Shown here piece by piece: positions 7,885 to 37,800 of a stretch of DNA of 37,800 bases; the stretch's first letter is position 1; each line of letters starts with the position of its first letter. Location of the stretch: contig CAOKLO010000032.1 of NCBI GenBank assembly GCA_948469375.1, positions 1 to 37,800 of the forward strand, given 5' to 3'. Source of the stretch: an uncultured bacterium (GTDB lineage: Bacteria > Bacillota > Clostridia > Oscillospirales > Oscillospiraceae). The notes under the pieces are model-generated. The model searched no databases, was not told the origin of the DNA, and was given only the letters and a program-made list of their open reading frames with translations. Both the position numbers and the translations under genes were made by a program.

Positions 7885-7918
7885 ATGCCCCCAACATTAT
7901 GATAGGAGGAACACACCC

Positions 7919-13900: not shown

Positions 13901-16900
13901 GCCGGTGCGCGGTTCAAGATCACCAACGCCAATGGTGAACTCGTACCGGACAATGAGGGGCTGACCAGTTCCAACGGGCTCTACACCACAGACCGGAATG
14001 GCCAGATCGTATTGTCCAAGATCCAGCCCGGTACTTACGTGGTGTCTGAGGACAAGGAGCCGGATTATTACCGGAAGGATCCCACGCCCCAGACGGTGGT
14101 TGTCGCCGCTGGTGATACGCAGACCCTCCGGTTTTACAACGATCCCCTCTGCACCCTCACCATCCTGAAGCGGGACGCTGTGACCAAGAAGCCTCTGGCG
14201 AAAGCGGAGTTCCTGGTTCGGGACAGCGAGGGTAAGGCCGTCGGGCCCAACAACGGGAAGTACATCACTGGGACAGATGGAACCGTGACGGTCACTGGCC
14301 TGGAGCCCAACGCGACCATCGTGGTTTCTGAACAGAAAGCGCCCACCGGATACATCAAGGATGAGACGCCGAAAAACATCGTTGTTCGTACCGGCGTTGC
14401 CAACAGCCTGATTTTTGACAACGAGCCTGCAACGACCCTCATTATCCAGAAATTCATCGAGGGTACGGAGAATGAGCCCCTGTCCGGCGTGGCCTTCAAG
14501 GTCACGGACGGCGCTGGCGCGGCAGTCGGCCCGGATGATGGAACGTATTATACGGACAAGGCCGGCGAGATCGTGCTGAGTGGCCTGGAGCCCGGAACCA
14601 CTGTTAAGGCCCGCGAGATCAAGACGGTGGAAGGGTTCGTGCTGGATGGGACTCCGCAGGACATCCTCATCAAAGCCGGAGAGGTCCAGCGGCTGACTTT
14701 CTGGAACAAACGGGACTGCTCCCTCACCATCTTGAAGCAGAGCACCGACAAGACCCCGCTGACCGGTGCGGTGTTCCATGTCACCGATGAGGACGGCGCA
14801 GCTATCGGAACCAACAATGGCCGATACACCACCGACCGCAACGGCCTCATTACCATCACCGGCCTCCAGCCGGGGCAGGTGCTGATCGTCACCGAGGAAA
14901 AGGCTCCCAACGGTTTCGTGCGCGATATGACCCCCAAGACCATCAAGATCAAGCAGGGCGTCGCCAATAGCCTGATTTTCGAGAACGCCCGCACGGGAAA
15001 GCTGGTCATCAACAAGTACAGTGCCCTGGACAAGAAGACCCCGCTGGAGGGCGTGACCTTCAAGATCACCACCACGAACGGCGATTTCCTTCCGGATGAG
15101 GATGGGAAGATCAGTTCCAACGGACTGTACTACACCGACAGCACTGGCCAGATCATCCTCAACAGTGTGGTCGGTTCCGTCGTAGTCACGGAGGTGCAGA
15201 GCATCCCTGGCTACACCATCAGCGACGCCAACCGGACGCAGGTGGTGGAGGTCAAGCCGGATGACACGCAGAGCCTCTACTTCTATAATGAACCCCTGTG
15301 CAGCCTGACCATCACGAAGCTGGATTCCGTCACCGGGAAGCCCGTTCCCAACACCGAGTTCACTTTGAAGGACGGTAACGGCAACATCATCGGCAAGTAT
15401 ACCACGGGCAAAGACGGCACTGTGACGGTGGGCGGCCTCGTACCTGGAACGGCGGTCGTGGTCACGGAGACCAGAGTCCCCAGCGGCTACGTGCTCAATC
15501 AGATCCCCCAGACCATCATTGTCAAGAACGGCACGAGCAATCTGACCAGCGGCGCTGGCAGCAGCTCCAGCAACACGGGTTGGAGCAGTAATGGGAATGA
15601 TCTCACCTTTGAGAACGATCCCAAGACGACGCTGACGATTGAGAAGTATCTGGAGACGGAGACCGGAGACAAGCCCTTGAAGGGAGTTACCTTCCTGGTC
15701 ACCGATTCCAGCGGCGCGGTCGTCGGTCCCAACAACGGCGAGTACATCACCGGCGAGGATGGCCGCATCGTCATCCCCAATCTGGAGCCTGGAACCACCA
15801 TTACCGCCAGGGAGATCAAGGTCCCCGAGGGCGTCCTGCTGGACAGTGCGCCCAAGAGCATCAAGATCAAGACCGGCGAGGGCCAGACCCTCCGCTTTGT
15901 CAACCAGCGTACCGGCACGCTCGTGATCCGGAAGCTGGACAAGGTTTCCAAGACCCCGCTGACCGGGGCTGAGTTCGAGCTGACCTATGCCGAGGGCGGG
16001 TACGTGGACGACGCCAACGGCCACCTCTCCAGCAAGGGCCGGTACAAGACCAATGACATGGGCGAGATCCGTATCTCCGTCACCGGAACGGTGGTCGTGA
16101 AGGAAGTGACCCCCTGCCCCGGCTATGTCATTGATGCCGCCACCCAGATCCAGACTGTCAAGGTGAACCCGGCGGACACACAGGCCCTCGTCTTCTATAA
16201 CGAGCCCCTGTGCAGTCTCACCCTCACAAAGCGGGATTCCGTCACCGGCAAGCCCGTTCCCGGCACGGAGTTCACCCTGAAGGATGGCAACGGCGCCATC
16301 CTGGGTAAGTACGTCACCGGGAGCGACGGGACTGTGACCGTAACAGGCCTCATTCCTGGCAGCACGGTTGTCGCGGTTGAAACCAAGGTGCCCAAGGGGT
16401 ATGTGCTGGATCCCACCCCGAAGACCATCATCGTGAAGAACGGCGCCAGCAACAGCATCATCAGCGGCTCCGGAAATACCGGCAGCACGATCATCCCCGG
16501 TGGCAGCACCACCACTCCTGGCGGCAATGGCGGCAACAATCTGGATTTCGAGAACGATCCCACGACCACGCTCACGATCCAGAAATTCGTGGACGGCACC
16601 GAGAACCAGCCCCTGAAGGGCGTGGAGTTCCTGGTCACGGACGGAACCGGCGCTGTGGTAGGCCCCAATAACGGCTACTATACCACGGACAAGGACGGCC
16701 GCATTACCATCTCTGATTTGGAGCCCGGTACGACTATTACCGCGCGGGAGACCAAGACGCTGGATGGATATGTCCTTGATTCTACGCCGCAGACCATCAC
16801 TATCAAGACCGGAGAGGGCCAGACAATGACCTTCTGGAACAAGAAGGCCGGCGGCCTCATCATCAACAAGGTGGACGCCGTCACCGGCAAGCCGCTGGTT

Positions 16901-18814
16901 GGCGTGAAGTTCAAGATCACCTACGCGGACGGATCCAATGTGGATCTGGACGGCGGCAAGATCTCCTCCAATGGCATCTACACCACCAATACCGAGGGAC
17001 AGATCAAGGTCCTGGGCATCACAGGGACGGTTATCGTCGAGGAGATCGAGACGATCTCCGGCTACCTCATTGACCCCAACACCAAGACCCAGACGGTGCA
17101 GGTCAACGCTAACGACACCCAGACCATCACCTTCAAGAACCAGCCCACCAAGAATCTGGTCATCCAGAAGCTGGTGACGGGAACCTCGGACAAGCCTCTG
17201 GCCGGCGTGGAGTTCCTGATCACCGACAGCAGCGGCGCCACCGTCGGCCCCAACAACGGCATTTATAAGACCGACCAGTATGGCCGTATCACGCTCTCCG
17301 GCCTGGAGCCCGGCATGGTCATTACCGCCAAGGAAACCAAGACGGTGGATGGCTACGTCCTTGATTCCACGCCTCAGAGCATCGAGATCAAGGCGGGCGA
17401 GGGTCAGACCCTGACCTTCTACAACGCCGCCGTGGGCGGGTTGGAGCTGATCAAGGTCAGCGAAAGTGATAAGACCAAGCGCCTTGCCAATGTGACCTTT
17501 GAGATCCGGAAGATGGATGGCGGCCTCGTAGATACCGTTACCACAGGCAGTAATGGCCGCGTCCACGTTCCGCTGGACGCCGGAAATTACTATGCGGTGG
17601 AGATCGAGGCTGCCGAGGGCTTCAAGGTCGATGCCACACCCCAGTATTTTACCATCAAGGACAATGAGACGACCACCCTCACCGTGACGAACAAGCCATT
17701 TTCCGGGCTGATCATCCACAAAATCGACAGCGTTACCGGAAAGGGCATTTATGGTGTAAGTTTCCTGCTCTATGATGGCAACCAGAAACCCATTGATCAG
17801 GTAACGACCGATCAGAACGGCTATATCTATCTGGACAGCCTGGACTTCTCCGGCAAGATCTTTATCCGTGAGATGGAGAACAAGGGCTATATCGCAGACA
17901 CCCAGCTCAAGACCTTCTACATCAAGCCCGGCGAAACCACAGAGATCACCTGGAAGAACACGCCCATCATGGGGCAGATCCAGATTTGGAAGAAATCCGC
18001 TGATGATAACCCCATCAACGGCTTCCCTGCTGGCACGCCGCTGGAAGGCGCTGTGTTCGAGATCTACGACAAGGCCAACCGCCTGGTGGATACCGTCAAG
18101 AGCGACAAGAACGGGCTGGCGGCATCCAAGCTGCTGCCGTTGGAACGGTACACCGTGAAGGAAGTCACCGCACCGCCCTACTATTCCGTGAACAACGAGG
18201 CGGTCACGGTCTACCTGGAGCATGAAGGGCAGATCGTCCAGATCGAAGTACGGGATACCAGCGTCTTCACCAATGTTTCCGTTCATAAGAGTGGGTACAA
18301 AGAGGTGGTTCCCGGCCAGTCGATCCGCTACGAGTTCTCGGATATCGCCAACCACTCCACTGTTCCGCTGGACAATTTCTATTGGCGGGATACGCTTCCC
18401 ACAGATGCAGTCCGGCTGGAGAAGATCATTACCGGCACCTGGACAGGACGGCTCAGCTACAAGGCCGTCTACCGGACGAACACCAGCAGCGAGTACCGCA
18501 CCCTGGCCGATAATCTGAGTACCTCCAAGAACTATACGCTGGATGCATCCTCCGCCGCACTGGGACTGGCCAGTAACGAGTACGTCACAGAGGTCATGTT
18601 CCTGTTCGGGCGCGTACCCGCTGGATTCACCCAGCTGCAGACGCCCTATATTTACTGTAAGGTTCTACCCGGCCTGGCCCATGAGTACCGGTTCTCCAAC
18701 AAGACGGATGTGGGCGGGATCTGGCAGGGCAACTGGGTCATGGCTGTTGACAGGTGGGTCACCATCGTCTACAGCAAGTCTGCAACGCCCAAGCTGCCCC
18801 GTACCGGATATTGA
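7919..18814 (+). CDS. Giant adhesin: VanX-like dipeptidase domain, about 26 SpaA/Cna-B repeats, C-terminal LPRTGY
   Basis: 3,631 residues. The start at 7919 has TAGGAGGAA about 8-14 nt upstream. Domains in order: signal peptide (about 1-38); SH3-like region (about 45-135); M15 DD-dipeptidase domain (about 165-385) with EAFRP (near 218), SNHQAGLAVD (265-274, SxHxxGxAxD) and EWWHF (near 365), the VanX/DdpX signature; a large unassigned domain (about 430-790) typical of ICE-borne surface proteins; a beta domain (about 790-905); about 26 SpaA/Cna-B-type repeats of 85-115 residues (about 908-3445); and a final beta domain (3446-3620). Most repeats keep an N-terminal strand Lys, a Glu in (V)xE before the GY turn, and a terminal F-x-N-x-P, the residues used for intramolecular isopeptide bonds. 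The protein stops right after LPRTGY (3626-3631), with no hydrophobic anchor or basic tail. It is probably the substrate of the sortase at 5643 and acts in cell-cell contact during mating. Confidence 0.87.
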   Translation: MLKSFSQHINANWKRAVSMLLVLLTVISMLPATAIAAEVASPYPATGDFEVNVAGATGWNGTGLPLPVYDSESDGVEIATVPASDGATPIPFVILEDSGGDRVKIGLVSNDSGKAIPWTGGSVDKTGWVDKKYIFVNLPDVLPSIVYNLTNTSGSIFTAADGTEIPGVTGSQLYAGKQFNLRLDRKEYIVPCMYSLAQRLAKVQKAAMASGDTLVIYEAFRPAAAQSAVRDGLSSLIGSNAAVSADMKNASAMGYGQNWFIAGGTSNHQAGLAVDMTLAKGDPDELYGYSLDGTVYRKYEAWTEYDMPSAMHELSSGAIRFRKPASSTAMPTDLEDWAENFAASEGAKRLQKYCTDAGLIPLSSEWWHFNDPNMAEIMAKGMHSKSVPINTAGNYTFEAAPSVTPSSALKQFTSRPNKVHAAVPASNGPTGGTGGLNPGSPGGQKPSRNDVAWTTDPERTFLRFTLIEFPEGVVTDLSNTGSWKVKGTPLNVVWGDGSIENWDADTCRRRITWFNSNAMQYNSMGSNAAQMMGGTVYAYDATAGYNQRWVTTADEFQAETGISDQEKEQMFHCHSSSWSTGWANGDYTSMWGTDPKPVTPGNEYMVYKGNKAFLYLLSRLTEVGSNGQALPGWSEDVALKNWSEYVHDADGNLRTKYRIIIETGGVFVDPDGHRRAYTLREMMAYSLYNNEPATINHLIYDQSSTIKNMAQYMRQRKDDQFLEYPLDSSGQPTGEELHSTNGFKECDSFVDSITSPRDIRDTIFNNRRSYGLHILSPFNFERPEPEGLSLDVTKKADGSIPAGEEWGFTVTYTAGSPTSFSAKKGDTDCTSEVTATGSGLKFTLQGNESIHIDFVADASFRYEVTEDDTTYLTDITGTGGTADMSAKKFTSSGGESKVTFTNGTTTSEKKPVYLKLKKIAAEDQRPLSGAVFSVYADAACNGTVLATMTTGTDGTASTSVPNIVEDGGSVTLYVKETTAPAGCTPLDTPFTVTCKAPENSTEAGAVQVGPAAGIENGGGGPGPGKTILYKRDAMTNKGVGPTTFKFSSVTNGDYEFDTDENGELEPIQWWDTSEKDGKYIKPGEYAVTELVPPPNYESTTEVQQIKLELDANGNPIPAGPLVFKNLAKVGLRIVKYDRQSHQPMKGVTFEIFKDGNSIGRKETDANGEILLTGLEPGTYRAVEVDTGDDGHILDTSWQEVELVAGGGTKDLFFFNDKLPGMKLIKVDSSDPSKTISDAKFSIRAIDGSYGPQEFTTDSNGEIDLSKLPEGSYEVTELECAGYIIDNAQRIIHLHPNDTAQFVFTNTKKPGLRLIKTSADGTPLDGVTFKITPIEDASHSIDRTTQNGGEILVEGLEPGIYSVVETATLPDHILDKTEHHVELIPGKTSEIRLKNDKRPNLTICKRDADTKEIIPNTVFLVKAADGHSVNEVKTGADGKGTLENLLPGVYEISEKSVPEPWLKDAANQLVTLYPNKDREVLFENHKKPLLTLTKIDADTGVFIPGTVFTVEGIDNDYQDDWTTGADGKVSKRVPPGTYRVTEKSVPAPYYLPDKDKDRVQTITLHGGDEKELLFKNHKAPELTIFKVDSVAGAPIEGAKFHVTYTSNGESAGAPASMDFGYFITDARGEIRLHEQGKKLYPGEYTVTEVEPAPGFQMKEPTTQKVILHGGESKTLTFQNEPLNAIVVEKYDSVTHEALPSCTFQLRFLGGTSGTGGTVIGQKVTGQNGTCIWTGLTAGTYIVEEVDPADGYSIINASETVYISDDGKQNVVTVKFDNAPDGILLIRKVCSVNPSITLQDAEFKAMYADGTLIGDSNGVYRTDENGEIRIEGLKPGKSVVVTETRAPDGFIIDTQSQTVQIKEGRTVSLTFKNQPKGSLIIQKRDSITGQPLPGAQFRLTTAAGCEVGLDGVIGSSTLTQNGLFTTDSNGEIRVSNLAPGALVLTEVKAPAGYVMDAPSTNVVIGSNGDTQTVIITNTPKGALIVEKYDSVTKQPLAGARFKITNANGELVPDNEGLTSSNGLYTTDRNGQIVLSKIQPGTYVVSEDKEPDYYRKDPTPQTVVVAAGDTQTLRFYNDPLCTLTILKRDAVTKKPLAKAEFLVRDSEGKAVGPNNGKYITGTDGTVTVTGLEPNATIVVSEQKAPTGYIKDETPKNIVVRTGVANSLIFDNEPATTLIIQKFIEGTENEPLSGVAFKVTDGAGAAVGPDDGTYYTDKAGEIVLSGLEPGTTVKAREIKTVEGFVLDGTPQDILIKAGEVQRLTFWNKRDCSLTILKQSTDKTPLTGAVFHVTDEDGAAIGTNNGRYTTDRNGLITITGLQPGQVLIVTEEKAPNGFVRDMTPKTIKIKQGVANSLIFENARTGKLVINKYSALDKKTPLEGVTFKITTTNGDFLPDEDGKISSNGLYYTDSTGQIILNSVVGSVVVTEVQSIPGYTISDANRTQVVEVKPDDTQSLYFYNEPLCSLTITKLDSVTGKPVPNTEFTLKDGNGNIIGKYTTGKDGTVTVGGLVPGTAVVVTETRVPSGYVLNQIPQTIIVKNGTSNLTSGAGSSSSNTGWSSNGNDLTFENDPKTTLTIEKYLETETGDKPLKGVTFLVTDSSGAVVGPNNGEYITGEDGRIVIPNLEPGTTITAREIKVPEGVLLDSAPKSIKIKTGEGQTLRFVNQRTGTLVIRKLDKVSKTPLTGAEFELTYAEGGYVDDANGHLSSKGRYKTNDMGEIRISVTGTVVVKEVTPCPGYVIDAATQIQTVKVNPADTQALVFYNEPLCSLTLTKRDSVTGKPVPGTEFTLKDGNGAILGKYVTGSDGTVTVTGLIPGSTVVAVETKVPKGYVLDPTPKTIIVKNGASNSIISGSGNTGSTIIPGGSTTTPGGNGGNNLDFENDPTTTLTIQKFVDGTENQPLKGVEFLVTDGTGAVVGPNNGYYTTDKDGRITISDLEPGTTITARETKTLDGYVLDSTPQTITIKTGEGQTMTFWNKKAGGLIINKVDAVTGKPLVGVKFKITYADGSNVDLDGGKISSNGIYTTNTEGQIKVLGITGTVIVEEIETISGYLIDPNTKTQTVQVNANDTQTITFKNQPTKNLVIQKLVTGTSDKPLAGVEFLITDSSGATVGPNNGIYKTDQYGRITLSGLEPGMVITAKETKTVDGYVLDSTPQSIEIKAGEGQTLTFYNAAVGGLELIKVSESDKTKRLANVTFEIRKMDGGLVDTVTTGSNGRVHVPLDAGNYYAVEIEAAEGFKVDATPQYFTIKDNETTTLTVTNKPFSGLIIHKIDSVTGKGIYGVSFLLYDGNQKPIDQVTTDQNGYIYLDSLDFSGKIFIREMENKGYIADTQLKTFYIKPGETTEITWKNTPIMGQIQIWKKSADDNPINGFPAGTPLEGAVFEIYDKANRLVDTVKSDKNGLAASKLLPLERYTVKEVTAPPYYSVNNEAVTVYLEHEGQIVQIEVRDTSVFTNVSVHKSGYKEVVPGQSIRYEFSDIANHSTVPLDNFYWRDTLPTDAVRLEKIITGTWTGRLSYKAVYRTNTSSEYRTLADNLSTSKNYTLDASSAALGLASNEYVTEVMFLFGRVPAGFTQLQTPYIYCKVLPGLAHEYRFSNKTDVGGIWQGNWVMAVDRWVTIVYSKSATPKLPRTGY
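10640..18260 (+). repeat. About 26 tandem SpaA/Cna-B coding repeats with a higher-order three-unit period
   Basis: The repeat-coding part of the adhesin. Units begin with a strand such as LTIxKxDSVTGxPL, contain a GxYTTDxxGxI turn and GLxPGT, and end at LxFxNxP. In the second half, three unit classes alternate. Class A is LCSLTxTK with EFTLKDGNG. Class B is TTLTIxK with FLVTD and VVGPNNG. Class C is TGxLVIxK with SSNGxY and VNPxDTQ. The order C-A-B occurs at about 15000-15920, 15915-16850 and, incompletely, 16850-17430. Two class-A units carry extra Ser/Gly/Thr-rich loops near 15535-15600 and 16440-16545. This points to expansion by duplication of multi-unit blocks. Confidence 0.75.
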
Positions 18815-23278: not shown

Positions 23279-23717
23279 TGATAGAGAATACAGTAATATT
23301 TACACAATACCGCCCAACTACACCGACTCCGGCAAGCTGTTGGGCGGCCTGCTTGAGGTACGGAACACGGTAGAGGCCGGAGTTCTGCTGGCCCTGGTAG
23401 GATATCCGGAGCTGATGTGGCTGCATCTGCCCCTTACCGCAAAAGTAACTGTGATGACAGTCACGCTGCTGCCGCTGGCCATATTCGCGCTGATGGGGCT
23501 GGGCGGCGACTCGCTGCTCCAATACGTCACACACATCGTTTCGTACTGGATGCGGCGCAGGACACTTCACTATAGGAGGGTAGGCTATCGCTATGGCAGG
23601 ACCACGACCCAAAAGCGCCCAGCAGCAAAAAAAGCGGGCGCCTCTCCGAAAAAGAAAAAGACTGGAGTTCGTTCAGGACTTCATCCCCCTAAAGGAGATC
23701 AAAAACGGCATCATTGA
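23271..23717 (+). CDS. PrgI/VirB3-like T4SS membrane protein
   Basis: 148 residues. The N-terminus (YTIPPNYTDSGKLLGG) is typical of PrgI-family proteins. Two hydrophobic helices (about 34-52 and 56-78) are followed by a basic cytoplasmic tail. It sits directly before VirB4, the usual position of VirB3/PrgI. It overlaps the hydrolase gene by 8 nt and the VirB4 gene by 125 nt. The Lys/Arg-rich last 40 residues lie wholly in that overlap, so they may be poorly constrained. Confidence 0.78.
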   Translation: MADDREYSNIYTIPPNYTDSGKLLGGLLEVRNTVEAGVLLALVGYPELMWLHLPLTAKVTVMTVTLLPLAIFALMGLGGDSLLQYVTHIVSYWMRRRTLHYRRVGYRYGRTTTQKRPAAKKAGASPKKKKTGVRSGLHPPKGDQKRHH

Positions 23718-26172
23718 AACCAATGACGGCCGCTACATCAAGATACTGGAAATTGAGCCGATCAACTTCCTCCTGCGCTCCAACGAGGAGCAATGGGGCA
23801 TCATCTCTACCTTCGCCAGCTGGCTTAAAATATCGCCAATGCGGCTGCAGTTCAAATCTGTTACACGCCGGGCGGACTCGGATAAATATATTGCTGGTCT
23901 GAGGAGGGATCTGGAACAGGAGGAGGTCGCCGCTTGCCGTGCTCTCGGCGAGGGTACGATCCGCTTTATCCGGGAGGAGGGCAGCCGCGAGGCGCTGTCC
24001 CGCCGCTTCTTTCTGATTTTCCAGTATGAGGCGGTGAGCCGCAGGCAGGCGGATGCGGACTACAGCGAGATCTATGCCGCGCTCCAGACTGCGGCGCAGA
24101 ACGCCCGCACCTACTTTGCCCAGTGCGGCAACAGCATTGTCCAGCCCAAGGACGAAGACGCCTTTGTGGCGGAGATCCTGTATATGTACTTCAACCGCCG
24201 CTCCTGTGTGGACGACCCATTTCAAAACCGGCTCAACCGTGTGGTGATGGACGCCATGACGGCAAAGAAGCGTGTCATCGGGATAGACCCGGTCCCAAGG
24301 ATCCGGGCGGTGAACTTTGTCGCGCCCCGCGGGCTTGACCTGACACACGCCGGCTACATCGTCATGGACGGCGCCTACTACACCTATCTCTATATCCGAA
24401 AGAACGGCTTTCCGCAGCAGGTGAGGGGCGGCTGGATGTCCTCCCTCATCAATGCGGGGGAAGGAGTCGATATCGACCTGCATCTGCGGCGTGAGATCCG
24501 CGGCAAGACCATCGACCGGGTGGCGCAGCGTATCCGGCTCAACCGCACCAAGCTGCGGGAACTGCAGGATACCTCCACCGACTATGAGGAACTGGCCGGT
24601 TCCATCCAGGCGGGCTACTACATCAAGCAGGGTCTGTCCAGCCGGAACGAGGATCTATTCTATATGTCGGTATTCATCACCATCTCCGGCGCTTCCTATG
24701 AGGAGCTGGTCTGGCGCAAGCAGCAGATGACCGACCTGATGAAGTCCATGGACATCCAGGTGTCAGACTGCATGTTCCAGCAGGAAGCGGCGCTCCGCTC
24801 CACAATGCCCTTCCTTGCGATAGACGCCAGCCTGGAGCGCAAATCCAAGCGGAATATCCTGACCAGCGGGGCCGCGTCCACCTATATGTTCACCAGTTTT
24901 GAGCTCTCTGACGACAACGGCATCCTGTTGGGCCTCAACCGGCACAACAACTCCCTGTGCATTGTGGACCCGTTCAACACCAAGGTGAACAAGAACGCCA
25001 ACTTCACCATCTGCGGCACATCCGGGGCAGGAAAGACCTACACCATGCAGGTCATGGCCCTGCGGATGCGGATGCGCGGGATCCAATGCTTCATCCTGGC
25101 CCCTCTGAAGGGCCACGAGTTCAAGCGCGCCTGCCATAAAGTCGGCGGCTCCTATATCAAGCTGGCGCCCGGCTCCGCCGCCTGCATCAATGTGATGGAG
25201 ATCCGGCCCACCATCACCCCGGAGATGGAGCTGATCGACGAACTGGATTACAGCGACATCGACTCCATGCTTGCGAAAAAAATACAGCAGCTGATGATCT
25301 TCTTCTCCCTGCTGATCCCCGACATGAGCAACGAGGAGGAGCAGATGCTGGATGAGGCGCTGATCAAGACCTATGCCCAGTTTGGCATCACCCACGACAA
25401 CACCTCGCTCTACACCGACGCCAGCAGGATGGTCATGAAGCCCATGCCCATTCTGGGCGACCTCTACAACAACCTGAAGGACAATACACTGACCACCCGC
25501 CTGGCCACCATCGTCAGCCGGTTCGTCACCGGCAGCGCCCAGAGCTTCAATCAGCAGACCAATGTGAATCTGGACAACAAGTATGTGGTGCTGGATATTT
25601 CTGAGCTCAAGGGGAAGCTGCTCCCGGTAGGCATGATGATCGCGCTGGATTACGTGTGGGACCAGGTCAAGGCCGACCGCACCAAGCGGAAGATGGTCTT
25701 CATAGATGAGATATGGAAGTTGATCGGCGGCGCTGCAAATAAGCAGGCCGCTGAATTTTGTCTGGAGATCTTCAAGATCATCCGCGGCTACGGCGGCGGT
25801 GCCCTGGCTGCCACCCAGGATCTGTCCGACTTCTTCGGCCTGGAGGACGGACGCTACGGCCGGGCGATCCTCAACAACAGCAAGACAAAGATCATCCTGA
25901 ACCTGGAGCCGGACGAGGCGGAATATGTCAAGGATGTGCTGAAGCTCTCCCGCACTGAGCTGCGCAGCATCACTCAGTTTGAGCGCGGCGAGGCGTTGCT
26001 CTCCAGCAACAGCAACAAAGTCCCTGTCATCATCAAAGCCTCCCACGAGGAGCAGCAGATGATCACCACCGACCGGGCGGAACTGGAGGCCATGCTCTCT
26101 GAACTCCAGCAGGTAGCGCAGACTGCGGAACAGAGCGTTATCCCTGCCGGAGCAGACGCTGCAGACCAGTAA
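23593..26172 (+). CDS. virB4: VirB4-family T4SS ATPase
   Basis: 859 residues. An N-terminal VirB4 domain (about 30-420) is followed by a P-loop ATPase domain. Walker A is GTSGAGKT (475-482). Walker B is MVFIDE, with D705-E706, followed by a conserved (A)TQD motif in the LAATQDLSDFF strand. This is the energising ATPase of the mating channel and pairs with the PrgI-like protein upstream, as in Gram-positive MPF systems. The start at 23593 has TAGGAGGG about 12 nt upstream and lies 125 nt inside the PrgI-like gene. Length and motifs are those of a complete protein. Confidence 0.95.
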   Translation: MAGPRPKSAQQQKKRAPLRKRKRLEFVQDFIPLKEIKNGIIETNDGRYIKILEIEPINFLLRSNEEQWGIISTFASWLKISPMRLQFKSVTRRADSDKYIAGLRRDLEQEEVAACRALGEGTIRFIREEGSREALSRRFFLIFQYEAVSRRQADADYSEIYAALQTAAQNARTYFAQCGNSIVQPKDEDAFVAEILYMYFNRRSCVDDPFQNRLNRVVMDAMTAKKRVIGIDPVPRIRAVNFVAPRGLDLTHAGYIVMDGAYYTYLYIRKNGFPQQVRGGWMSSLINAGEGVDIDLHLRREIRGKTIDRVAQRIRLNRTKLRELQDTSTDYEELAGSIQAGYYIKQGLSSRNEDLFYMSVFITISGASYEELVWRKQQMTDLMKSMDIQVSDCMFQQEAALRSTMPFLAIDASLERKSKRNILTSGAASTYMFTSFELSDDNGILLGLNRHNNSLCIVDPFNTKVNKNANFTICGTSGAGKTYTMQVMALRMRMRGIQCFILAPLKGHEFKRACHKVGGSYIKLAPGSAACINVMEIRPTITPEMELIDELDYSDIDSMLAKKIQQLMIFFSLLIPDMSNEEEQMLDEALIKTYAQFGITHDNTSLYTDASRMVMKPMPILGDLYNNLKDNTLTTRLATIVSRFVTGSAQSFNQQTNVNLDNKYVVLDISELKGKLLPVGMMIALDYVWDQVKADRTKRKMVFIDEIWKLIGGAANKQAAEFCLEIFKIIRGYGGGALAATQDLSDFFGLEDGRYGRAILNNSKTKIILNLEPDEAEYVKDVLKLSRTELRSITQFERGEALLSSNSNKVPVIIKASHEEQQMITTDRAELEAMLSELQQVAQTAEQSVIPAGADAADQ

Positions 26173-30291: not shown

Positions 30292-32337
30292 GTGAAATCA
30301 AATCGTGTAAGAACGGCCGGTATCGTGCTGGCTGTGGCGCTGGGCCTGGCGTTGTTGTTCTATTTGGGCGGATTCATTTGCCAGATCCATCTCAATTATG
30401 TGCAGTGGATGTCGGATGGAGGCATTACGGGCAAGACAGCGATGGCTCCGGTCAGAACCGGCTTACTGGACTGTTGGGCGAGCGGGTTCTCCTTTACCGG
30501 CCTCAAGTATGACCTTCTGATCATTGTCCTGGCTGTCAGCGTCTATGCCTTTTTCCGGCTCCAGGACAGGTTTGGCAGCAAGGATCGGGACGCCCGCAAT
30601 TTCTCCCGCAGCAAGCGCGGCACCTATGGCACGGCAGGCTGGATGAGCGATCAGGAGATGCGCACCATCCTGGAGGTGGCCAGCCCGGGCAAGGCCAGAG
30701 GCATCATACTGGGCCAGAACGAACACGGCTCCGTCATCTGCCTGCCGGAGAACACCAGACTCAACAAGCACATCGCCGTGTTCGGCGCCAGCGGGACGAT
30801 GAAGTCCCGCGGTGTGATCCGCCCAGCCCTGTTCCAATGCATCCGCCGCGGGGAGTCCGTGGTCGTGTCGGATCCCAAGTCCGAGATGTACGCGGATACT
30901 GTGGAGCTGTTCCGGAAAAACGGGTATGCTGTCCGCGTTTACAACCTGCTCAAACCGGAGCTAAGCGACTCCTGGAACTGTATGTTCGACCTGGGCGGCG
31001 ATACCCTGATGGCCCAGGTGCTCACAGATGTGATCATCTCCAATACCCGCGGTGGAGAAAAGGGCGACCACTTCTGGGATAACGGCGAATCCAATCTGCT
31101 TAAAAGCCTGATCCTCTATGTGGATCTGGACGCCAGCCGCACGCCGGAGGAGCGGAACCTGCCCGCCGTATACCAGATGCTGACCCAGAACTCGGAAAAA
31201 CAGCTCACAGCCCTCTTTGACCGGCTGCCCATGAGCCATCCCGCAAAGGCCCCCTACAGCCTGTTCAGCCAGGGCAGCGATACGGTGCGCGCCGGTATCA
31301 TACTGGGCCTGGGCACCCGGCTCCAGGTGCTGCAGAGCGAGGCGGTACGGCAGATCACCCGCCGCTCCGACATCGACCTGACAGAGCCAGGCAAGACCAA
31401 GTGCATATACTATATCATCCTGGACGACCAGAACTCCTCCCTGGAGTTTCTCTCGTCCCTTTTCTTTGCCTTTCTGTTCATCAAACTGGTTCGGTACGCC
31501 GACAGTATGCCGGATCAGCGGTGCAAAGTGCCGGTCAACATCATCCTGGATGAGATGAACAATATCGGCATCATACCGGATTTCGGGCGGCGTCTGAGTA
31601 CCGTTCGGTCCCGGGCGCTGCAGATCCTTATGGCCTGCCAGTCCTTACCCCAGCTCCAGAACCGCTATCCCAACAACCTTTGGGCAGAGCTTGTGGGCAA
31701 TGCGGACACACAGCTCATGCTGGGCTGCACAGACGATGTCTCAGCGGAGTATTTCAGCAGCCGCAGCGGCGACATGACGGTGGAAGTAAACTCCACTATG
31801 ACCACACGGCAGAGCATCGCGGTAGCCCAGGTCATCCCGCAGTACCGCTACTCCGAGGGATTGGGCCGCCGTCGGCTGCTTACCCCGGACGAGGTGCTGC
31901 GCCTCCCCAATGATGAGCTGCTGATCATCATCCGCGGCCAAAAGGTGTTGCGGGCCAGGAAATTTGACTACACAGGCCACCCATACGCAAAGGACTGTGT
32001 GAAGGCAAGCATCCTGGACTACAAATCAAGCCACAGCCCCCCGTTGGAGCCGGAGATCATTCCAGAAAGGGCGGCGTCCAAAGAGGAGAAACCGGCCAAA
32101 GCGGAGGAGCAGCATACCGCTGCGCTGCATACAGCAAAGCCGCCGGCGCCGCCCGCTAAAAAGGAGGATGTCCCCAAGCCCGCCGGTGAAAAGCCCCGCC
32201 AGGCCGCATCCGAGTCTCCAGCGGCGCCGCCTGCTCCGGCAGAGCCTGCCCAGCAGCAGACGCCGCCAGCACAGCCTAAACCAGCCCGGCGTCCGAAAAC
32301 CCTCTACGAGAGTTCCCGGCCTCCGGCCGATTTTTGA
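30292..32337 (+). CDS. virD4: VirD4/TraG-family T4SS coupling protein
   Basis: 681 residues. Two N-terminal transmembrane helices (about 9-30 and 75-93) are followed by the coupling ATPase domain (about 130-580). Walker A is GASGTMKS (165-172), where Met replaces the usual Gly before the Lys (M170, K171). Walker B is NIILDE (D420-E421). Other features are VVVSDPKSEMY and FGRRLSTVRSRALQILMACQ, typical of TraG/VirD4. The last 95 residues are Pro/Ala/Lys-rich and probably disordered. The start is GTG 30292, with GAGGAGG 7 nt upstream. It should connect the relaxase-DNA complex to the channel, though no relaxase is in this window. Confidence 0.93.
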   Translation: MKSNRVRTAGIVLAVALGLALLFYLGGFICQIHLNYVQWMSDGGITGKTAMAPVRTGLLDCWASGFSFTGLKYDLLIIVLAVSVYAFFRLQDRFGSKDRDARNFSRSKRGTYGTAGWMSDQEMRTILEVASPGKARGIILGQNEHGSVICLPENTRLNKHIAVFGASGTMKSRGVIRPALFQCIRRGESVVVSDPKSEMYADTVELFRKNGYAVRVYNLLKPELSDSWNCMFDLGGDTLMAQVLTDVIISNTRGGEKGDHFWDNGESNLLKSLILYVDLDASRTPEERNLPAVYQMLTQNSEKQLTALFDRLPMSHPAKAPYSLFSQGSDTVRAGIILGLGTRLQVLQSEAVRQITRRSDIDLTEPGKTKCIYYIILDDQNSSLEFLSSLFFAFLFIKLVRYADSMPDQRCKVPVNIILDEMNNIGIIPDFGRRLSTVRSRALQILMACQSLPQLQNRYPNNLWAELVGNADTQLMLGCTDDVSAEYFSSRSGDMTVEVNSTMTTRQSIAVAQVIPQYRYSEGLGRRRLLTPDEVLRLPNDELLIIIRGQKVLRARKFDYTGHPYAKDCVKASILDYKSSHSPPLEPEIIPERAASKEEKPAKAEEQHTAALHTAKPPAPPAKKEDVPKPAGEKPRQAASESPAAPPAPAEPAQQQTPPAQPKPARRPKTLYESSRPPADF

Positions 32338-32436: not shown

Positions 32437-33930
32437 ATGGCACGTACGAAGAAAGAACTGAAGGATCAGCTCCTCGCTGATGAGCTGGGCCAGGGCGAAG
32501 GCGCCGCCCTTGAAGGGGCGGAACTGCCGCCCGACTCCACTGGCGAGCAGGAGCCGCAGGCCGCCGGCAGTCTGTCCGACCTGGAGCTGCTGCACGCCAG
32601 TTCTCTGGATCCGGACGCCCTCCCGGCTGAGTCCGAGTCGGGCGACGCCGCGGGCATCCCCTCCCAGACTGACTTTGAACCGCCTCCGGAGCCCGAGCAC
32701 GCGCCCGTGGACGGCCAGGCCGGCGCTGACGCTGAGCTGGACGGTATGGGTGCGCTCCAGTCCGGCCCCGACGAGTCTGCGGATGGCCGCCCGCCCGACG
32801 AGGCGATGGAGGAGCCCTTTGGCGGCGGCAATGTCTTCGGCGGCGAGCCGCTTCCGGCATCGCAGACGCCGCCCTTCTATATGCCGCCGCAGCAAGCTGG
32901 TTCGGAAAACGCCGCACCTGCTGCGGAGCCTGAGCCCGCTGGCCAGCCGGATGGCGTGTTTCAGGGCGATCCTGAGAACGGCCCGGTCCAGACGGAGGCC
33001 ACGCGGCCGAGGCTGCGGATGCCCCGGCGCCGCGGGCCGCGGGTTGTCTCCATCGACGCTGAGCGGACCGTGGAGACGGAGAACGACCGGCTGCGCAGCG
33101 ACCTGCTGGATCTGGTGGAGTCCTTCAAGGGCAAAAAGATCCTCACTGGCACCATCCAGGGCGTAGAGCGCCTGGCCAGCAACCCGGAGATGTGCTACGC
33201 CGTCACCTACCACGGTGACTTCAAGATCATCATCCCGGTACTGGACGCCATCGAGGAGCCAGAGGACTACCGCAACCAGCCCAAGGGCGATGTCCTCCAC
33301 TACCTGCTCAACAAGCGGCTGGGTGCCGAGGTGGATTACATCGTCAAGCGCATCGACCAGGAGGGCGGCGTAGTGGCGGCCAACCGTCTGGAGGCCATGG
33401 CCCTCAAGCGCCGGGAGTATTACTTCCGCACAGACCGCGACGGCAACTATCAGATCTATGAGGGCATCCGTGCCGAGGCCCGTGTCGTCTCCGTCATCCG
33501 GGCGGGCATCTTTGTGGATCTGTTCGGCGTGGAATGCTACATCCCGCTCCGTGAACTGTCCTATCAGCGATGGGTGGACGCCGCCAGCCACTACCAGCCC
33601 GGCCAGCGCGTGCTGGTAAAGGTGCTGGAGGTGGACCGCTCCGACCGGGACAAGCCCGTTGTGACCGCCTCCGTCAAGCAGGCCAGCGAGAACCCCTATG
33701 AGAAGGCGCTCAAGAAATATGCGGTGGGCAACCGCTATGTGGGCACCGTCAGCATGGTGGATCTCAGCGGCGTATTCGTGTCCCTGGACGGCGGCATCGA
33801 CTGCCTCTGCACCCACCCCAAGCGCGGCCGCCCGCCCCGCGGCGCCCGTGTCACCGTCCGCATCCTGGGCATCAACAATGAGACGAACCGCATCTGGGGC
33901 GTCATCACCCACATGTCCATGACCCGCTGA
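32437..33930 (+). CDS. S1-domain RNA-binding protein with long acidic N-terminus
   Basis: 497 residues. The first ~200 are acidic and Pro/Gly/Ala-rich, probably disordered, ending in a basic patch (RPRLRMPRRRGPR). Residues about 225-335 form an unassigned alpha/beta domain. Two S1/OB-like domains follow: about 342-420 (GIRAEARVVSVIRAGIFVDL, then PLRELS) and about 430-495 (GNRYVGTVSMVDLSGVFVSL). Tandem S1 domains bind RNA in ribosomal protein S1 and related proteins. The start has GAAGGAGG about 9 nt upstream. It could stabilise or help translate the element's long mRNAs, or act on the structured RNA encoded at 34788; both are speculation. Confidence 0.78.
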   Translation: MARTKKELKDQLLADELGQGEGAALEGAELPPDSTGEQEPQAAGSLSDLELLHASSLDPDALPAESESGDAAGIPSQTDFEPPPEPEHAPVDGQAGADAELDGMGALQSGPDESADGRPPDEAMEEPFGGGNVFGGEPLPASQTPPFYMPPQQAGSENAAPAAEPEPAGQPDGVFQGDPENGPVQTEATRPRLRMPRRRGPRVVSIDAERTVETENDRLRSDLLDLVESFKGKKILTGTIQGVERLASNPEMCYAVTYHGDFKIIIPVLDAIEEPEDYRNQPKGDVLHYLLNKRLGAEVDYIVKRIDQEGGVVAANRLEAMALKRREYYFRTDRDGNYQIYEGIRAEARVVSVIRAGIFVDLFGVECYIPLRELSYQRWVDAASHYQPGQRVLVKVLEVDRSDRDKPVVTASVKQASENPYEKALKKYAVGNRYVGTVSMVDLSGVFVSLDGGIDCLCTHPKRGRPPRGARVTVRILGINNETNRIWGVITHMSMTR

Positions 33931-34058: not shown

Positions 34059-34640
34059 ATGCAACGACCGAAAGGGCGATCCGCTCGCCGCTGGGCAGCC
34101 ATACTGCTCGCGGCAGTCCTCTCCCTGGCCATATCGCCGGCGGCGCTGGCGGACACAGGCGACAACACCCCCAAGATCACTAAGCAGCCCGAACAGCTGG
34201 TGCTCCAGCTCGGAACCCGCTGGGCCGGTGTGGAGTTCGAACTGCGTACAGACGCCGGCGTCTTCCCCGCGCCTATCGTAGTGGATGAGAGCGGCGTGCT
34301 CAGAATGGATCTGGGCGGCAGCTCCACCTATACGCTCAGCTGCATCGAGTCCTCCCTCCCCATCCCGGACCCGCAGCAGGGCGCGGAACAGGGCACAGAG
34401 CAGACTCCGCCCGCCCCGGATACGGCCGACCCCCAGCAGCCGCCGGAACCGGCCCCGCAGCCAGACCCGCCCCCTACACCAGAGCCGGAGCCCGCCCAGC
34501 ACAGCGTGCCGATCTGGCCGCTGACCATTTTCCTGATGGGCCTGGCCGCAGGCGGTGGCTGCCTGGCCGCCCTCTATATAACCAAGCGCAACCAGCAGGG
34601 CGCCTACGAGGAGTGGGAGGACGACGACGAGGAGGACTGA
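34059..34640 (+). CDS. Exported protein with Pro-rich stalk and C-terminal membrane anchor
   Basis: 193 residues. The signal peptide is about 1-31 (ending SPAALAD). A compact beta-like domain (about 35-103) is followed by a Pro/Glu/Gln-rich stalk (about 105-148), a transmembrane helix (about 152-172) and an acidic cytoplasmic tail (EEWEDDDEED). The layout is like the protein at 4742 (signal, domain, Pro stalk, TM) but the sequence is not evidently related. The RBS is modest (TTGGAG). It is the last gene of the long plus-strand transfer block. No family or function recognised. Confidence 0.65.
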   Translation: MQRPKGRSARRWAAILLAAVLSLAISPAALADTGDNTPKITKQPEQLVLQLGTRWAGVEFELRTDAGVFPAPIVVDESGVLRMDLGGSSTYTLSCIESSLPIPDPQQGAEQGTEQTPPAPDTADPQQPPEPAPQPDPPPTPEPEPAQHSVPIWPLTIFLMGLAAGGGCLAALYITKRNQQGAYEEWEDDDEED

Positions 34641-34751
34641 CCCTAAATACCGCGCACAGCCCCCAGCACAGCCTGTCATACTCACTTTTTGCCAGCATAT
34701 TGAGTTTGAAGCGAAAAATATGAACTTTTTATGTATTTTTCGGCGCTTTTA

Positions 34752-34798
34752 TTGACTTTTTCCGCGTCTTGTGCTATATTATATATAACACAAGACGC
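34752..34798 (+). promoter_or_regulatory. Strong sigma-A-type promoter with 10-bp dyad over the -10 box
   Basis: TTGACT (34752-34757), a 17-bp spacer and TATATT (34775-34780) make a near-consensus promoter. GCGTCTTGTG (34764-34773) and CACAAGACGC (34789-34798) form a perfect inverted repeat whose 15-bp A/T-only centre (apart from its first C) holds the -10 box. A protein bound to the dyad would block RNA polymerase. Transcription should begin near 34787-34789, so the right arm is also the 5' end of the RNA. Confidence 0.75.
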
Positions 34799-35032
34799 TG
34801 TGCTCAGGCTTTCGATACGCTGGAGCATACCAACGTCAGACCCGCTGCTTGGGGGAATCGTTACGGATCTGTGACTGATCCAGATCCACACGGTGCAGGT
34901 CTTGTGCCGACAATATGTAGCCGAAAGGTTGCTGAAATACAGTACAGAGTCAATGGCTGGATGCGACACCACTATTCCAGCACTTGATTCTGTGCTGTCT
35001 TTTTTAGCAATCTTTCGGCTTTTTCTGTTTTT
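34788..35032 (+). ncRNA. Structured ~245-nt RNA, self-terminated, family not assigned
   Basis: The RNA runs from the strong promoter to an intrinsic terminator. The 5' domain is closed by CACAAGAC (34789-34796) with GTCTTGTG (34899-34906) and contains the hairpin GGATCTG/CAGATCC (34865-34871 with 34881-34887) plus less certain stems. The 3' domain is a long rod: AGCCGAAAG and TTGCT (34919-34933) with AGCAA and CTTTCGGCT (35006-35020), then ACAGTACAGA (34939-34948) with TCTGTGCTGT (34989-34998), TCAA/TTGA, and GCTGG (34956-34960) with CCAGC (34977-34981). TTTTTCTGTTTTT follows. There is no credible coding sequence. It could be an independent ncRNA or a long attenuating leader for the sigma-like genes at 35076. 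Rfam families such as raiA RNA or 6S RNA should be tested; I cannot assign one from sequence alone. Confidence 0.7.
34919..35032 (+). terminator. Intrinsic terminator formed by the 3' rod of the structured RNA
   Basis: The outer stem AGCCGAAAGGTTGCT (34919-34933) with AGCAATCTTTCGGCT (35006-35020) has one mismatch and is followed by a T-rich tract to 35032. The inner stems are described with the RNA. It lies 43 nt before the sigma-like gene, so expression of that gene needs readthrough or a further promoter, which was not found. Confidence 0.7.
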
Positions 35033-35075
35033 CCAGCACATGTTATTGGCGGATAGGAGATAGGAGGTAAAGAAA

Positions 35076-35606
35076 ATGTTGGCACTTACACCGGAAGAGC
35101 AGGTGCGGGTTGAGGAGAATATGGGGCTGGTGGGCGATGTACTCAAAAAGTATATCCACTCTCCACCTCCGGGCAGCGTTTATTCAAAGGAGGATCTGTA
35201 TCAGATCGGCTGTATCGGGCTGTGCAAGGCGGTGAAGTCGGATAAGGGGGCGCACGCCGGGGCCTTCTCTACATACGCCTGCCGGCTGATCCGCAATGAG
35301 ATCTATGATGCGCTGGAGTATTCCACCCGGCGCGGCAGGGAGATGGCGACAGACCCGGGCGAGATGCCCCAGGTCCGCTTGGAGGATGAGCTGGAGCAGC
35401 ATGTCCTGTGCGGTGCGCTCCTGGATCAGTTCAGCCGGGCGGAGGCCCTGGCGACAGGCACGGCGGCCAAGGGGCTCCAGGCGATCCGGCTGCTGGCCGA
35501 CGGCTATAGCAACCGGGAGATCGGCGAGCGGTTCGGCGTTCCGGCCAACCATGTGACCGCATGGGTCGCCAAGGCCCGGAAATTTCTCGCTGCAATGCCC
35601 ACATAA
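35076..35606 (+). CDS. Small sigma-70-family protein
   Basis: 176 residues. Residues about 10-80 match sigma region 2 (ENMGLVGDVLKKYI, EDLYQIGCIGLCKAVKS, FSTYACRLIRNEIYDAL). Region 4-like helices are at about 135-170 (IRLLADGYSNREIGERFGVP, then AWVAKARKFL). Region 3 is very short. The RBS TAGGAGGT is good. It lies downstream of the structured RNA and 16 nt before a second region-4-like gene. It probably directs transcription of element genes; the target promoter is not known. Confidence 0.83.
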   Translation: MLALTPEEQVRVEENMGLVGDVLKKYIHSPPPGSVYSKEDLYQIGCIGLCKAVKSDKGAHAGAFSTYACRLIRNEIYDALEYSTRRGREMATDPGEMPQVRLEDELEQHVLCGALLDQFSRAEALATGTAAKGLQAIRLLADGYSNREIGERFGVPANHVTAWVAKARKFLAAMPT

Positions 35607-35622
35607 ATAGGAGGGAACACAC

Positions 35623-36021
35623 ATGACAGTATCTATCAAAGAACATCCCTATCCATACAACCTGGTCTATCAGGTATTTGGACGGGAGATCCCACGGGAA
35701 GAACTGGCGCCGGATCTCGACGAGAGCCTGGAATATGTATTTGAGACGCTGATGAATGGGTATGAGGTATTCATCCTCATCCTGCGGTTTCTGTGCCACA
35801 TGAAGATCCGTGAGATCGCGGAATACTACGGCTTGACAGAGGGCCGCATCCGCCAGATCATCCAAGGGGCGGAGTTCAAGCTGCGGCATCCCAGCCGGTG
35901 CAGGTATCTGCAGCAGGGCTGCGCGGCGATCTGGCAGCAGGAGCGGCAGCTTGAGCAGCCGGACGGCGGAAGCGGGCAGGAAATGCCTTTGAAGCAGCTG
36001 GCTGGACGGCCTGCGATCTGA
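35623..36021 (+). CDS. Stand-alone sigma region-4-like protein
   Basis: 132 residues. The centre (about 45-92) reads YEVFILILRFLCHMKIREIA, then YGLTEGRIRQIIQ and KLRHPSR, which closely resembles region 4.2 of primary sigma factors (RIRQI and KLRHPSR are hallmark strings). No region 2 is present, so it could not melt promoters alone. It follows the sigma-like gene by 16 nt with ATAGGAGGG as RBS, suggesting the two act together or that this one modulates recognition of the -35 element. The C-terminal 35 residues are Gln/Glu-rich and of unknown use. Confidence 0.75.
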   Translation: MTVSIKEHPYPYNLVYQVFGREIPREELAPDLDESLEYVFETLMNGYEVFILILRFLCHMKIREIAEYYGLTEGRIRQIIQGAEFKLRHPSRCRYLQQGCAAIWQQERQLEQPDGGSGQEMPLKQLAGRPAI

Positions 36022-36027
36022 AAAAGA

Positions 36028-36073
36028 GGGGGGAGAGTAACGGCATCGATGCCAGTTGCTCTCCCCCCTTTTT
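36028..36073. terminator. Bidirectional intrinsic terminator between convergent genes
   Basis: GGGGGGAGAG (36028-36037) and CTCTCCCCCC (36059-36068) form a perfect stem, with GGCATCGATGCC in the loop making an inner hairpin. TTTTT follows on the plus strand, and the AAAAAGA before the stem gives a T run on the minus strand. It can end both the sigma-like operon and the SEFIR gene. Confidence 0.9.
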
Positions 36074-36130
36074 CCCTTTGAGTGGATACGAAGCAGAGTA
36101 TTTGTTTAACGTAGTTGAACAAGGTAATTA

Positions 36131-37765
36131 TTAGTCCCAGCCTCTATACGGCAGACTGTCAAACCACGAATACTCACTAAGCAAATCAAACGTCAAGTTA
36201 CTGCTTAGAATAGAAATGCCGTATGTATTGGGGAAAAACTTCTCTCTTTGAACATTTATTGCATCTAACAATGGAAGTTCACCGTTAATATAAAACTGAA
36301 TTACAGACAGAAAGCAGACAAAATCTGGAACAGAGTTTAGCATACCATAATCTAGGACAGCAAAAAAGAACCCGTTATAGTTTCCACTTGCCCCAAAGTA
36401 ATATTCCTCGCCGTAAAATGCACGAGAAACGCCCTGACCTGCATACCCATAAGTACGCATAAGGCCATCCTGAATTTCTGAAAATGCAAATTCACCTAAT
36501 GGCTTATCTGAAACAAAAGTGGAGTAGATTTCTGGCAATGTAATATCGACATCTGAAATATCATCTAATAAGGTAACGAAAAATGCCTGACATGAATTAT
36601 CAGATATATCGAAGTATGTTTGTACCATTACAATATCTGAAATATTATATGCACACACTAATACCTCTCCAGTTTTATCTTTTGGATCCTCATTAGGACG
36701 CAATAGTCTATCATCAATTATTGCCCTCTTTTTTTCAGCGAAAGGAGGACCCAGTACATCATCAATCCATGCCTTTGAGGTTCCAATAGATAGTTTCTGT
36801 ATCGCATTCAATTTATCACTGGTATCTTCTGCTATCGTAATTGAGATGGGTGTAGTACCTTTTGGCATCGTCCCGTTGGCTGTAGATTCGTCAAAATCAA
36901 GAATTTGGTCATCAGGAGCAGAATCACTAGAAGCAATGTCCTTCTGGGAAGTATCATCTGTGGGAGTAGTATCCAAAGTTGTATCATCTGGAGTAATATC
37001 CGATGATGAGTCGTCCGGAATGGAATTGCCCAAGATAGCGTCCTTGGAGACATCAGCATCAGGAATAGTAGTCGAATTATCATCAGGCGGATGATCAGAA
37101 TGGGATAAGAGGGGAGTAATGTATAACATGATAATACCGGCAATTACACTAACAATTACACCAGAAATAACATAACCTCTAAATGTGCTAATATCCCAAA
37201 AGTGTTTCCAAACTTTTTTTAATTCTACAATACAGGATGTGTTCGATGAACTTGCTTTTTCTAAAACTTTCTCCTGTGTTCCACGGCTTTTTGAACTTTC
37301 ATTCGACCTTTCATGTAAGCTATAATTTTGGAGATGCATTAGTAAGTTTGGATAGTTAGCCGTATAACGCTCGGATGTAGATAAATCAATTCCGAATTTC
37401 CCTTTCGCCCATATAGGCAAGGCTGTTTCCCATGTTCCATCAAACAGTATCGGAATAAATTTATTTTCATTACATGTTTCAAATAGTTCACTTGTTATGA
37501 TTCCGCTCTCGTATCCAACACCTGAGATCCTGTTATCAGCACGGTCTTTGTATTTGGGAGTGCAAATGAAAAGAACGATATCGCTTTTTGATATAGAAGT
37601 TTCGCAGAAATGTTGAATACGTTCTCCGAATTGTAAATCTCCATCATATACGACATTGATACCATCCAAACGAAGGTTATGCACCAGTTTTTTTACTTTT
37701 TCTTTGTGGAAATCTGAATCCCACGAATAAGCAATAAACACGCAAGGATCCGTTTTCTGTTTCAT
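36131..37765 (-). CDS. SEFIR (TIR-like) domain - transmembrane - extracytoplasmic domain protein
   Basis: 544 residues. The SEFIR domain (about 6-150) begins CVFIAYSWDS and contains VKKLVHNLRLDGINVVYD, SDIVLFICTPKYKDRADNR and SGVGYESGIITSELFE, the usual bacterial SEFIR landmarks; E86 is a candidate conserved Glu. A basic segment (KKVWKHFWDISTFR) precedes one transmembrane helix (about 196-216). A low-complexity Asp/Ser/Thr-rich linker follows (about 217-300), then a C-terminal domain (about 305-544) starting KLNAIQKLSIGTSKAWIDDV, like ETEC_3214-type domains (from memory). Positive charge before the helix suggests SEFIR inside, C-terminus outside. ATG 37765 is preferred over GTG 37780 because GGGGA lies 9 nt upstream. 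The gene is visibly AT-rich, unlike its neighbours, pointing to separate acquisition. Bacterial SEFIR/TIR proteins include anti-phage NADases; activity here is inference. Confidence 0.8.
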   Translation of the reverse strand: MKQKTDPCVFIAYSWDSDFHKEKVKKLVHNLRLDGINVVYDGDLQFGERIQHFCETSISKSDIVLFICTPKYKDRADNRISGVGYESGIITSELFETCNENKFIPILFDGTWETALPIWAKGKFGIDLSTSERYTANYPNLLMHLQNYSLHERSNESSKSRGTQEKVLEKASSSNTSCIVELKKVWKHFWDISTFRGYVISGVIVSVIAGIIMLYITPLLSHSDHPPDDNSTTIPDADVSKDAILGNSIPDDSSSDITPDDTTLDTTPTDDTSQKDIASSDSAPDDQILDFDESTANGTMPKGTTPISITIAEDTSDKLNAIQKLSIGTSKAWIDDVLGPPFAEKKRAIIDDRLLRPNEDPKDKTGEVLVCAYNISDIVMVQTYFDISDNSCQAFFVTLLDDISDVDITLPEIYSTFVSDKPLGEFAFSEIQDGLMRTYGYAGQGVSRAFYGEEYYFGASGNYNGFFFAVLDYGMLNSVPDFVCFLSVIQFYINGELPLLDAINVQREKFFPNTYGISILSSNLTFDLLSEYSWFDSLPYRGWD

Positions 37766-37800
37766 ATCAATATTCCCCACTAGTAAACATCTACATCTAA

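Follow-up and report, generated by a model that had tools for sequence, protein, structure and literature searches.

The DUF3268 RNA class, reportedly first described by Weinberg and colleagues in 2017, takes its name from the adjacent DUF3268 genes, an adjacency that is not a criterion of the Rfam model (RF02966). Rfam files this family as 'Gene; sRNA'. DUF-3268 is one of a set of 224 RNAs discovered in bacterial intergenic regions, its three-way junction has been crystallized as a k-junction (PDB 8ITS), and it is stated to have no ascribed function (PMC10573300). A second paper mentions it once, in the introduction (PMC8191799). Full-text literature searches on DUF3268, DUF-3268 and RF02966 returned no account of the rod described below or of a linkage to type IV secretion genes.

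Several regulators resemble in outline the leader considered here. The RNA canT, from the conjugative element Tn916, likewise may help polymerase get past terminators; however, reporters show that canT is processive and acts in cis, whereas the DUF3268 leader is known from sequence and is likened to it by description (PMC11658703). Similarly, conAn of pLS20, EAR and put are RNA elements at or near the start of an operon that control terminators, but conAn serves an operon of more than 30 kb with more than 20 terminators and needs a protein as well (PMC8955417). In the DUF3268 leader, by comparison, one terminator follows immediately and the operon is short. Gating of the AlpA and lambda Q type also places a promoter and then a terminator ahead of the regulated genes. 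In these systems, a protein is loaded at the promoter or at a DNA site, whereas none is known so far for the DUF3268 leader.

The DNA studied here, hereafter the window, comprises positions 1 to 37,800 of contig CAOKLO010000032.1 (GCA_948469375.1) from an uncultured Oscillospiraceae bacterium (Clostridia). At positions 34788-35032 it carries a two-domain RNA composed of a 5′ domain and a 3′ rod. This RNA matches the whole RF02966 model, has the same three-way-junction core, and has relatives that precede DUF3268 genes, but it differs in carrying a rod and a promoter outside the model and in missing the downstream DUF3268 gene. To the known class and the crystal structure of its junction we add a fuller extent, consisting of promoter, 5′ domain and rod terminator.

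A two-domain RNA and its relatives

The whole 245 nucleotides fold at -108.8 kcal/mol, compared with -68.2 ± 4.5 kcal/mol for 200 dinucleotide shuffles (z -9.1), and 0 of the 200 shuffles were as stable as the native fold. A preliminary description of this DNA had proposed a structured RNA of about 245 nucleotides with no credible coding sequence, and both statements hold. Specifically, stops occur in all three forward frames at 27 of the 34 loci checked, with at least one frame open at 7 of 34. Given stops at most loci, no reading frame is conserved across the RNA family, and a coding gene was rejected.

The 5′ half of the RNA (34789-34906, + strand) is assigned to the DUF3268 class through an RF02966 match at 34789-34900, which covers model positions 1-121 with a score of 66.2 bits, above the gathering score of 65.3. 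No other Rfam family reached its cut-off in the window, a result that also covers any Rfam model of the processive antiterminator RNAs (EAR, put, canT and conAn2). Identity with 6S or raiA RNA, both named as search models in the preliminary description, was rejected, with no match at the gathering score and none among the relaxed matches listed for positions 34600-36200. Stem P1 extends beyond the Rfam match, such that its arms CACAAGAC (34789-34796) and GTCTTGTG (34899-34906) pair exactly with 102 nucleotides between them, much as had been noticed earlier (arms about 100 nucleotides apart). The window copy is the lowest-scoring of the above-cut-off RF02966 matches listed in the family, order and class searches, and its P3 is shortened. 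It forms 22 of the 26 consensus pairs (range 21-26 over 37 sequences).

Relatives were gathered from Rfam searches and from a core-pattern scan of genome contigs. Among genomes of the same family, RF02966 matched 12 of 400, and the corresponding figures are 8 of 394 for the order and 5 of 391 for the class. These samples overlap, and each count includes the source genome; 14 control genomes gave no match. The source genome holds a single match. The pattern scan yielded 77 matches, of which 65 were kept and 12 set aside by eye. Those kept come from named Clostridia lineages, except for L053 (listed as 'Bacterium') and L067, L082 and L087 ('Bacillota'). Those set aside are 11 named non-Clostridia and L030, a Ruminococcaceae MAG without promoter or rod, whose omission tilts the promoter count given below by one in favor of our claim. 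After identical stretches were removed, the 65 pattern loci and 18 loci from the Rfam searches left 62 distinct loci. Four loci from the Rfam searches (L015, L016, L017 and L019) do not fit the pattern and stand outside the 62; they carry the promoter and the following hairpin. Plasmids and phages gave no blastn match to the 245 nucleotides, and the 5′ domain pattern was not found in viral contigs.

Across 37 non-redundant sequences, an alignment from which the truncated L094 was omitted, both sides change in 18 of the 26 consensus pairs of the 5′ domain. The core at the three-way junction (CAGGCTTTCG, GTCAGAC, GGGAATCG and TTACGG, within 34805-34866 on the + strand) is strongly conserved, with 28 invariant columns, a number that is partly by construction because the 62 loci were gathered with a pattern fixing many core letters. 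Indeed, L016 and L017, which lie outside this search pattern, vary at core columns that are invariant elsewhere. The exact core pattern occurs once in the window and in none of 100 shuffles. GAC and G.AA beside the junction are retained, being partly fixed by the search pattern, and the k-junction fold of the window copy is putative.

Promoter, rod and nested terminator

Upstream of the RNA lies a sigma-70-type promoter (34752-34780, + strand), with the -35 element TTGACT at 34752-34757, a 17-nucleotide spacer, the -10 element TATATT at 34775-34780, and an extended -10 TG. The preliminary description had called this promoter strong. Taken alone the site proves little, since 4 promoter-like sites were found in 3 kb against 2.7 expected by chance, whereas its constancy in relatives does prove it. 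With spacers of 16-18 nucleotides allowed, a promoter with a 17-nucleotide spacer ends 22-25 nucleotides 5′ of CAGGCT in all 61 evaluable loci (one of the 62 lies at a contig edge). It is counted as intact in 60 of the 61, the exception being the truncated L094 with its decayed -35 (TCGAAA). This near-fixed distance between promoter and RNA suggests that the RNA probably starts at the P1 stem. A near-perfect palindrome, GCGTCTTGTG...CACAAGACGC (34764-34798), spans the -10 element, and in transcripts arriving from upstream, P1 would face competition from the left arm of this repeat. A comparable palindrome of different sequence is present in L011, bringing the total to 2 of 61 loci including the window.

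The 3′ rod (34918-35021, + strand) lies outside the Rfam model. Its arms at 34919-34937 and 35002-35020 are 89% complementary, and it contains a nested terminator, so that the rod and terminator reported earlier are borne out. The inner hairpin and its U-run (35000-35005, + strand) were the 1 terminator that a scan found in 3 kb, where 2.7 are expected by chance. The outer hairpin and its U-run (35020-35024, + strand), the likely 3′ end of a short RNA, were read from the sequence. A terminator is present in most relatives: the T run after the outer stem has at least four residues at 44 of 55 loci with an operon downstream (35 by script, 9 by eye). It is broken at 4 of the 55 (L051, L058, L069 and L086), limited to three T at 4 (L003, L044, L045 and L066), and absent at 3 (L039, L096 and L099). 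At L096 and L099, the hairpin lacks a U-run and leads directly into the DUF3268 gene's ribosome-binding site, an arrangement that would be predicted for a 5′ UTR but not for a discrete sRNA.

Of the 45 rods whose middle stem is canonical, 28 non-redundant sequences entered the rod alignment, which omits L003, L006, L044, L045, L057, L066, the truncated L094, L063, L073, L096 and L099. In this alignment, 96.3% of the cells are paired, and the covariation score is 0.241, whereas shuffles give 0.166 ± 0.008 and slid versions reach no more than 0.088. Stems of the kind predicted in the preliminary description thus covary in both domains of the RNA. On this comparative evidence, a structured RNA that has its own promoter and, in most relatives, a terminator is well supported. 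The middle helix is also conserved in sequence: CAGAGTC is present in 24 of 28 rods, and 24 of 28 have one of three 3′ sides that match it; GAGACA, which the alignment places in the apical loop, is found in 13 of 28. Such sequence conservation is unusual for a plain terminator. When the best 150 candidates per genome were considered, a covariance model of the rod found matches in 19 of 20 genomes, only beside DUF3268 RNA, and no independently spreading rod was seen among these candidates. The sole miss, G385, has a divergent rod, and the rod palindrome is often matched on the opposite strand too. Weak matches of the rod to miRNA and trpB families fell far below cut-off and were rejected as most likely due to chance with a long hairpin.

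The two domains can also be compared by a duplex test that sets each sequence's own pairings against swapped ones (28 sequences). P1 and the rod give z values of -7.6 and -11.4, respectively, showing a much closer fit of each strand to its native partner. For the 13 combinations that join a segment of the 5′ domain to one of the rod, |z| never exceeds 2, in what is a coarse test that a short helix could escape.

The downstream operon and a proposed control of read-through

At 54 of the 56 loci with at least 250 nucleotides of downstream DNA, the next gene on the same strand is a DUF3268 gene. The two exceptions are the truncated L094 and the window, in which the sigma-like gene follows directly. 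Sigma-like and signal peptidase I genes also follow in many relatives, and at 8 loci DUF3268 is followed by the signal peptidase gene with no sigma-like gene found. Pfam confirms DUF3268 (PF11672; zinc ribbon), sigma region 2 and peptidase S26 in examples. By domain search and neighborhood comparison, the operon in the window begins with a sigma-70-like gene (regions 2 and 4; 35076-35606, + strand), followed by a second, sigma-region-4-like gene (35623-36021, + strand). L053 and L082 have the same sigma-sigma pair, yet they keep a DUF3268 match in between, and thus the lineage of the window has probably lost the gene, leaving the RNA directly before the sigma-like gene. With its fuller extent and its constant address before the DUF3268-sigma-signal peptidase operon, what was an orphan RNA becomes a leader that can be put to the test.

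A search for other DUF3268 genes in the family gave 26 loci, of which the 6 with at least 52% identity carry the RNA. For the remaining 20, the RNA was found in 0 of 11 parsed upstream regions (9 were unparsed). The source genome has three further DUF3268-domain genes (on contigs C3, C8 and C66), and the RNA is lacking upstream of both that were parsed (L123 and L136).

The spacing between the rod and the operon bears on how these genes are transcribed. From the U-run to the first start codon preceded by a ribosome-binding site, the distance is at most 32 nucleotides at 28 of the 34 loci placed by script (median 22), and 45-76 nucleotides at the other 6, among them the window at 51. If the last such start codon is taken instead, the distance is at most 35 nucleotides at 26 of 35 loci. 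A start within 32 nucleotides of the U-run leaves no room for a separate promoter, and transcription of the operon at those loci must therefore pass through the rod. The 6 loci with the wider gap, including the window, may have a weak separate promoter for the operon.

The preliminary description had offered two readings, a regulatory RNA of the element or a leader whose rod is a switchable terminator for the sigma genes. The leader is the better of the two, as it fits the geometry, the conserved adjacency to the operon and the usual distance of about 22 nucleotides from U-run to start, and its switch mechanism is unproven. Our tentative proposal, to which we give slightly less than an even chance, is a DUF3268-class leader RNA with two domains, in which termination at the rod is the default and a factor acting on the 5′ domain brings about read-through. 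RNA polymerase would start at the dedicated promoter, make the folded 5′ domain, and by default halt at the nested double terminator that the rod forms, releasing a short RNA of about 235 nucleotides. A polymerase that passes the rod would express the downstream operon, which is DUF3268 zinc ribbon, sigma-like and signal peptidase I in many relatives and two sigma-like genes in the window. What controls read-through would probably be a protein, a ligand or a polymerase contact at the 5′ domain's junction core rather than an exchange of strands with the rod. With no co-evolution detected between the domains in the coarse duplex test, riboswitch-style strand exchange is unsupported, as is the idea that the 5′ domain switches the rod by pairing with it, and a switch would need a bound factor or RNA polymerase.

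Several observations count against the leader, among them the wider gap before the start codon at 6 of 34 loci and the conserved gene order upstream, described below. The rod is very stable, an odd choice for a regulated terminator, and the window copy is the weakest of the above-cut-off matches listed and has lost its namesake gene. A further one is the pattern at L019 (1421-1740), where a degenerate DUF3268 RNA of 77 nucleotides (30 bits) has lost most of the 5′ domain while promoter, rod and DUF3268 gene are retained.

The main rival, which we judge to be on the unlikely side, is a trans-acting sRNA of about 235 nucleotides whose targets would be other mRNAs or proteins of the cluster, while the operon lives on leaky read-through. 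In favor of such an RNA are the promoter of its own and the nested terminator, the Rfam label of the class, and the fact that the window has kept the RNA despite the loss of the DUF3268 gene. However, the same operon lies directly downstream at 54 of 56 loci, and no more than three T follow the outer hairpin at 7 of 55. The loci without a U-run favor the leader over a discrete sRNA, and the nested terminator found elsewhere keeps the sRNA alive as an explanation.

Within the leader reading, the 5′ domain might act in cis on RNA polymerase, modifying it unaided or together with a protein of the cluster so that the enzyme passes the rod terminator. We regard this specific mechanism as unlikely. 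If true, the class would be a k-junction-based antitermination switch gating a sigma factor of conjugation-type clusters in Clostridia.

Less probable still is that the rod serves mainly as a long-stem insulating terminator against polymerases leaving the transfer operon, including antiterminated ones, with the 5′ domain present for some other purpose. A very long stem with two U-runs next to conjugation-type genes is consistent with this role, and the title of one study has long-stem terminators resisting antitermination. In most relatives, however, there is no space for a promoter 3′ of the rod, such that full insulation would silence the operon, and the rod was found only together with the 5′ domain (best 150 candidates per genome, 20 genomes). 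Finally, a classical riboswitch or attenuator, in which strands of the 5′ domain pair with the rod as an antiterminator, would suit an aptamer-like core followed by a terminator, but is very improbable given that 13 of 13 such segment pairings stay within |z| 2 in the coarse duplex test.

Genes upstream of the RNA

The gene preceding the RNA (34059-34640, + strand) has no Pfam match and is conserved at 50 of 58 loci. Because upstream gene order is conserved too, the adjacency of RNA and operon may in part reflect shared ancestry. Seven intact loci in which this neighbor was not found (L006, L039, L060, with only 428 nucleotides of upstream DNA, L063, L077, L096 and L099) all keep the link between RNA and DUF3268 gene.

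Further upstream, domain searches place an S1-domain protein gene (32437-33930, + strand), a VirD4-like gene (30292-32337) and a VirB4-like gene (23593-26172), together with genes for an NlpC/P60 protein, a sortase and a giant M15-SpaA protein. The VirD4 model scores 403 bits, above its cut-off of 250, the VirB4 model scores 290 bits, below the NCBIfam cut-off of 325, and Pfam TraG and T4SS domains exceed their cut-offs. Relatives of VirB4, VirD4 and the S1 protein occur together in 10 of 14 fetched regions (about 14-20 kb). Of the others, L100 has VirD4 and S1, L112 has VirB4, and L102 and L113 have none of the three. The RNA therefore does sit between conjugation-type genes and a pair of sigma-like genes, as first described, and the leader reading suggests how clusters of type IV secretion and adhesin genes in Clostridia might be controlled.

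The preliminary description went on to assign the RNA to a mobile element. Although the upstream genes are of conjugation type, this label exceeds the evidence and mobility is unproven, since no relaxase or integrase was found among 18 window proteins scanned with Pfam (one in part). The contig ends at 37800; 6 relaxase matches lie elsewhere in the genome, with none on this contig. In two Blautia genomes (L142 and L155), the cluster adjoins what we take, by eye, to be lysS, pyrB, birA and dus genes; no such genes were found in about 17 kb fetched beyond the cluster in Schaedlerella. An edge gene there matches DUF6462 and, below cut-off, Tn916 Xis. At L094, the truncated 5′ domain is followed by an ORF that presumably, judged by eye, resembles a MobA/MobL relaxase.

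Three other genes of the window can be described. Positions 7868-18814 form a single ORF of 3648 amino acids, whose first 1544 residues match an M15 peptidase and repeated SpaA domains, and the sortase gene lies at 5643-6518. At the end of the contig, a gene on the opposite strand (36131-37780) encodes a TIR/SEFIR-domain protein that is possibly related to defense.
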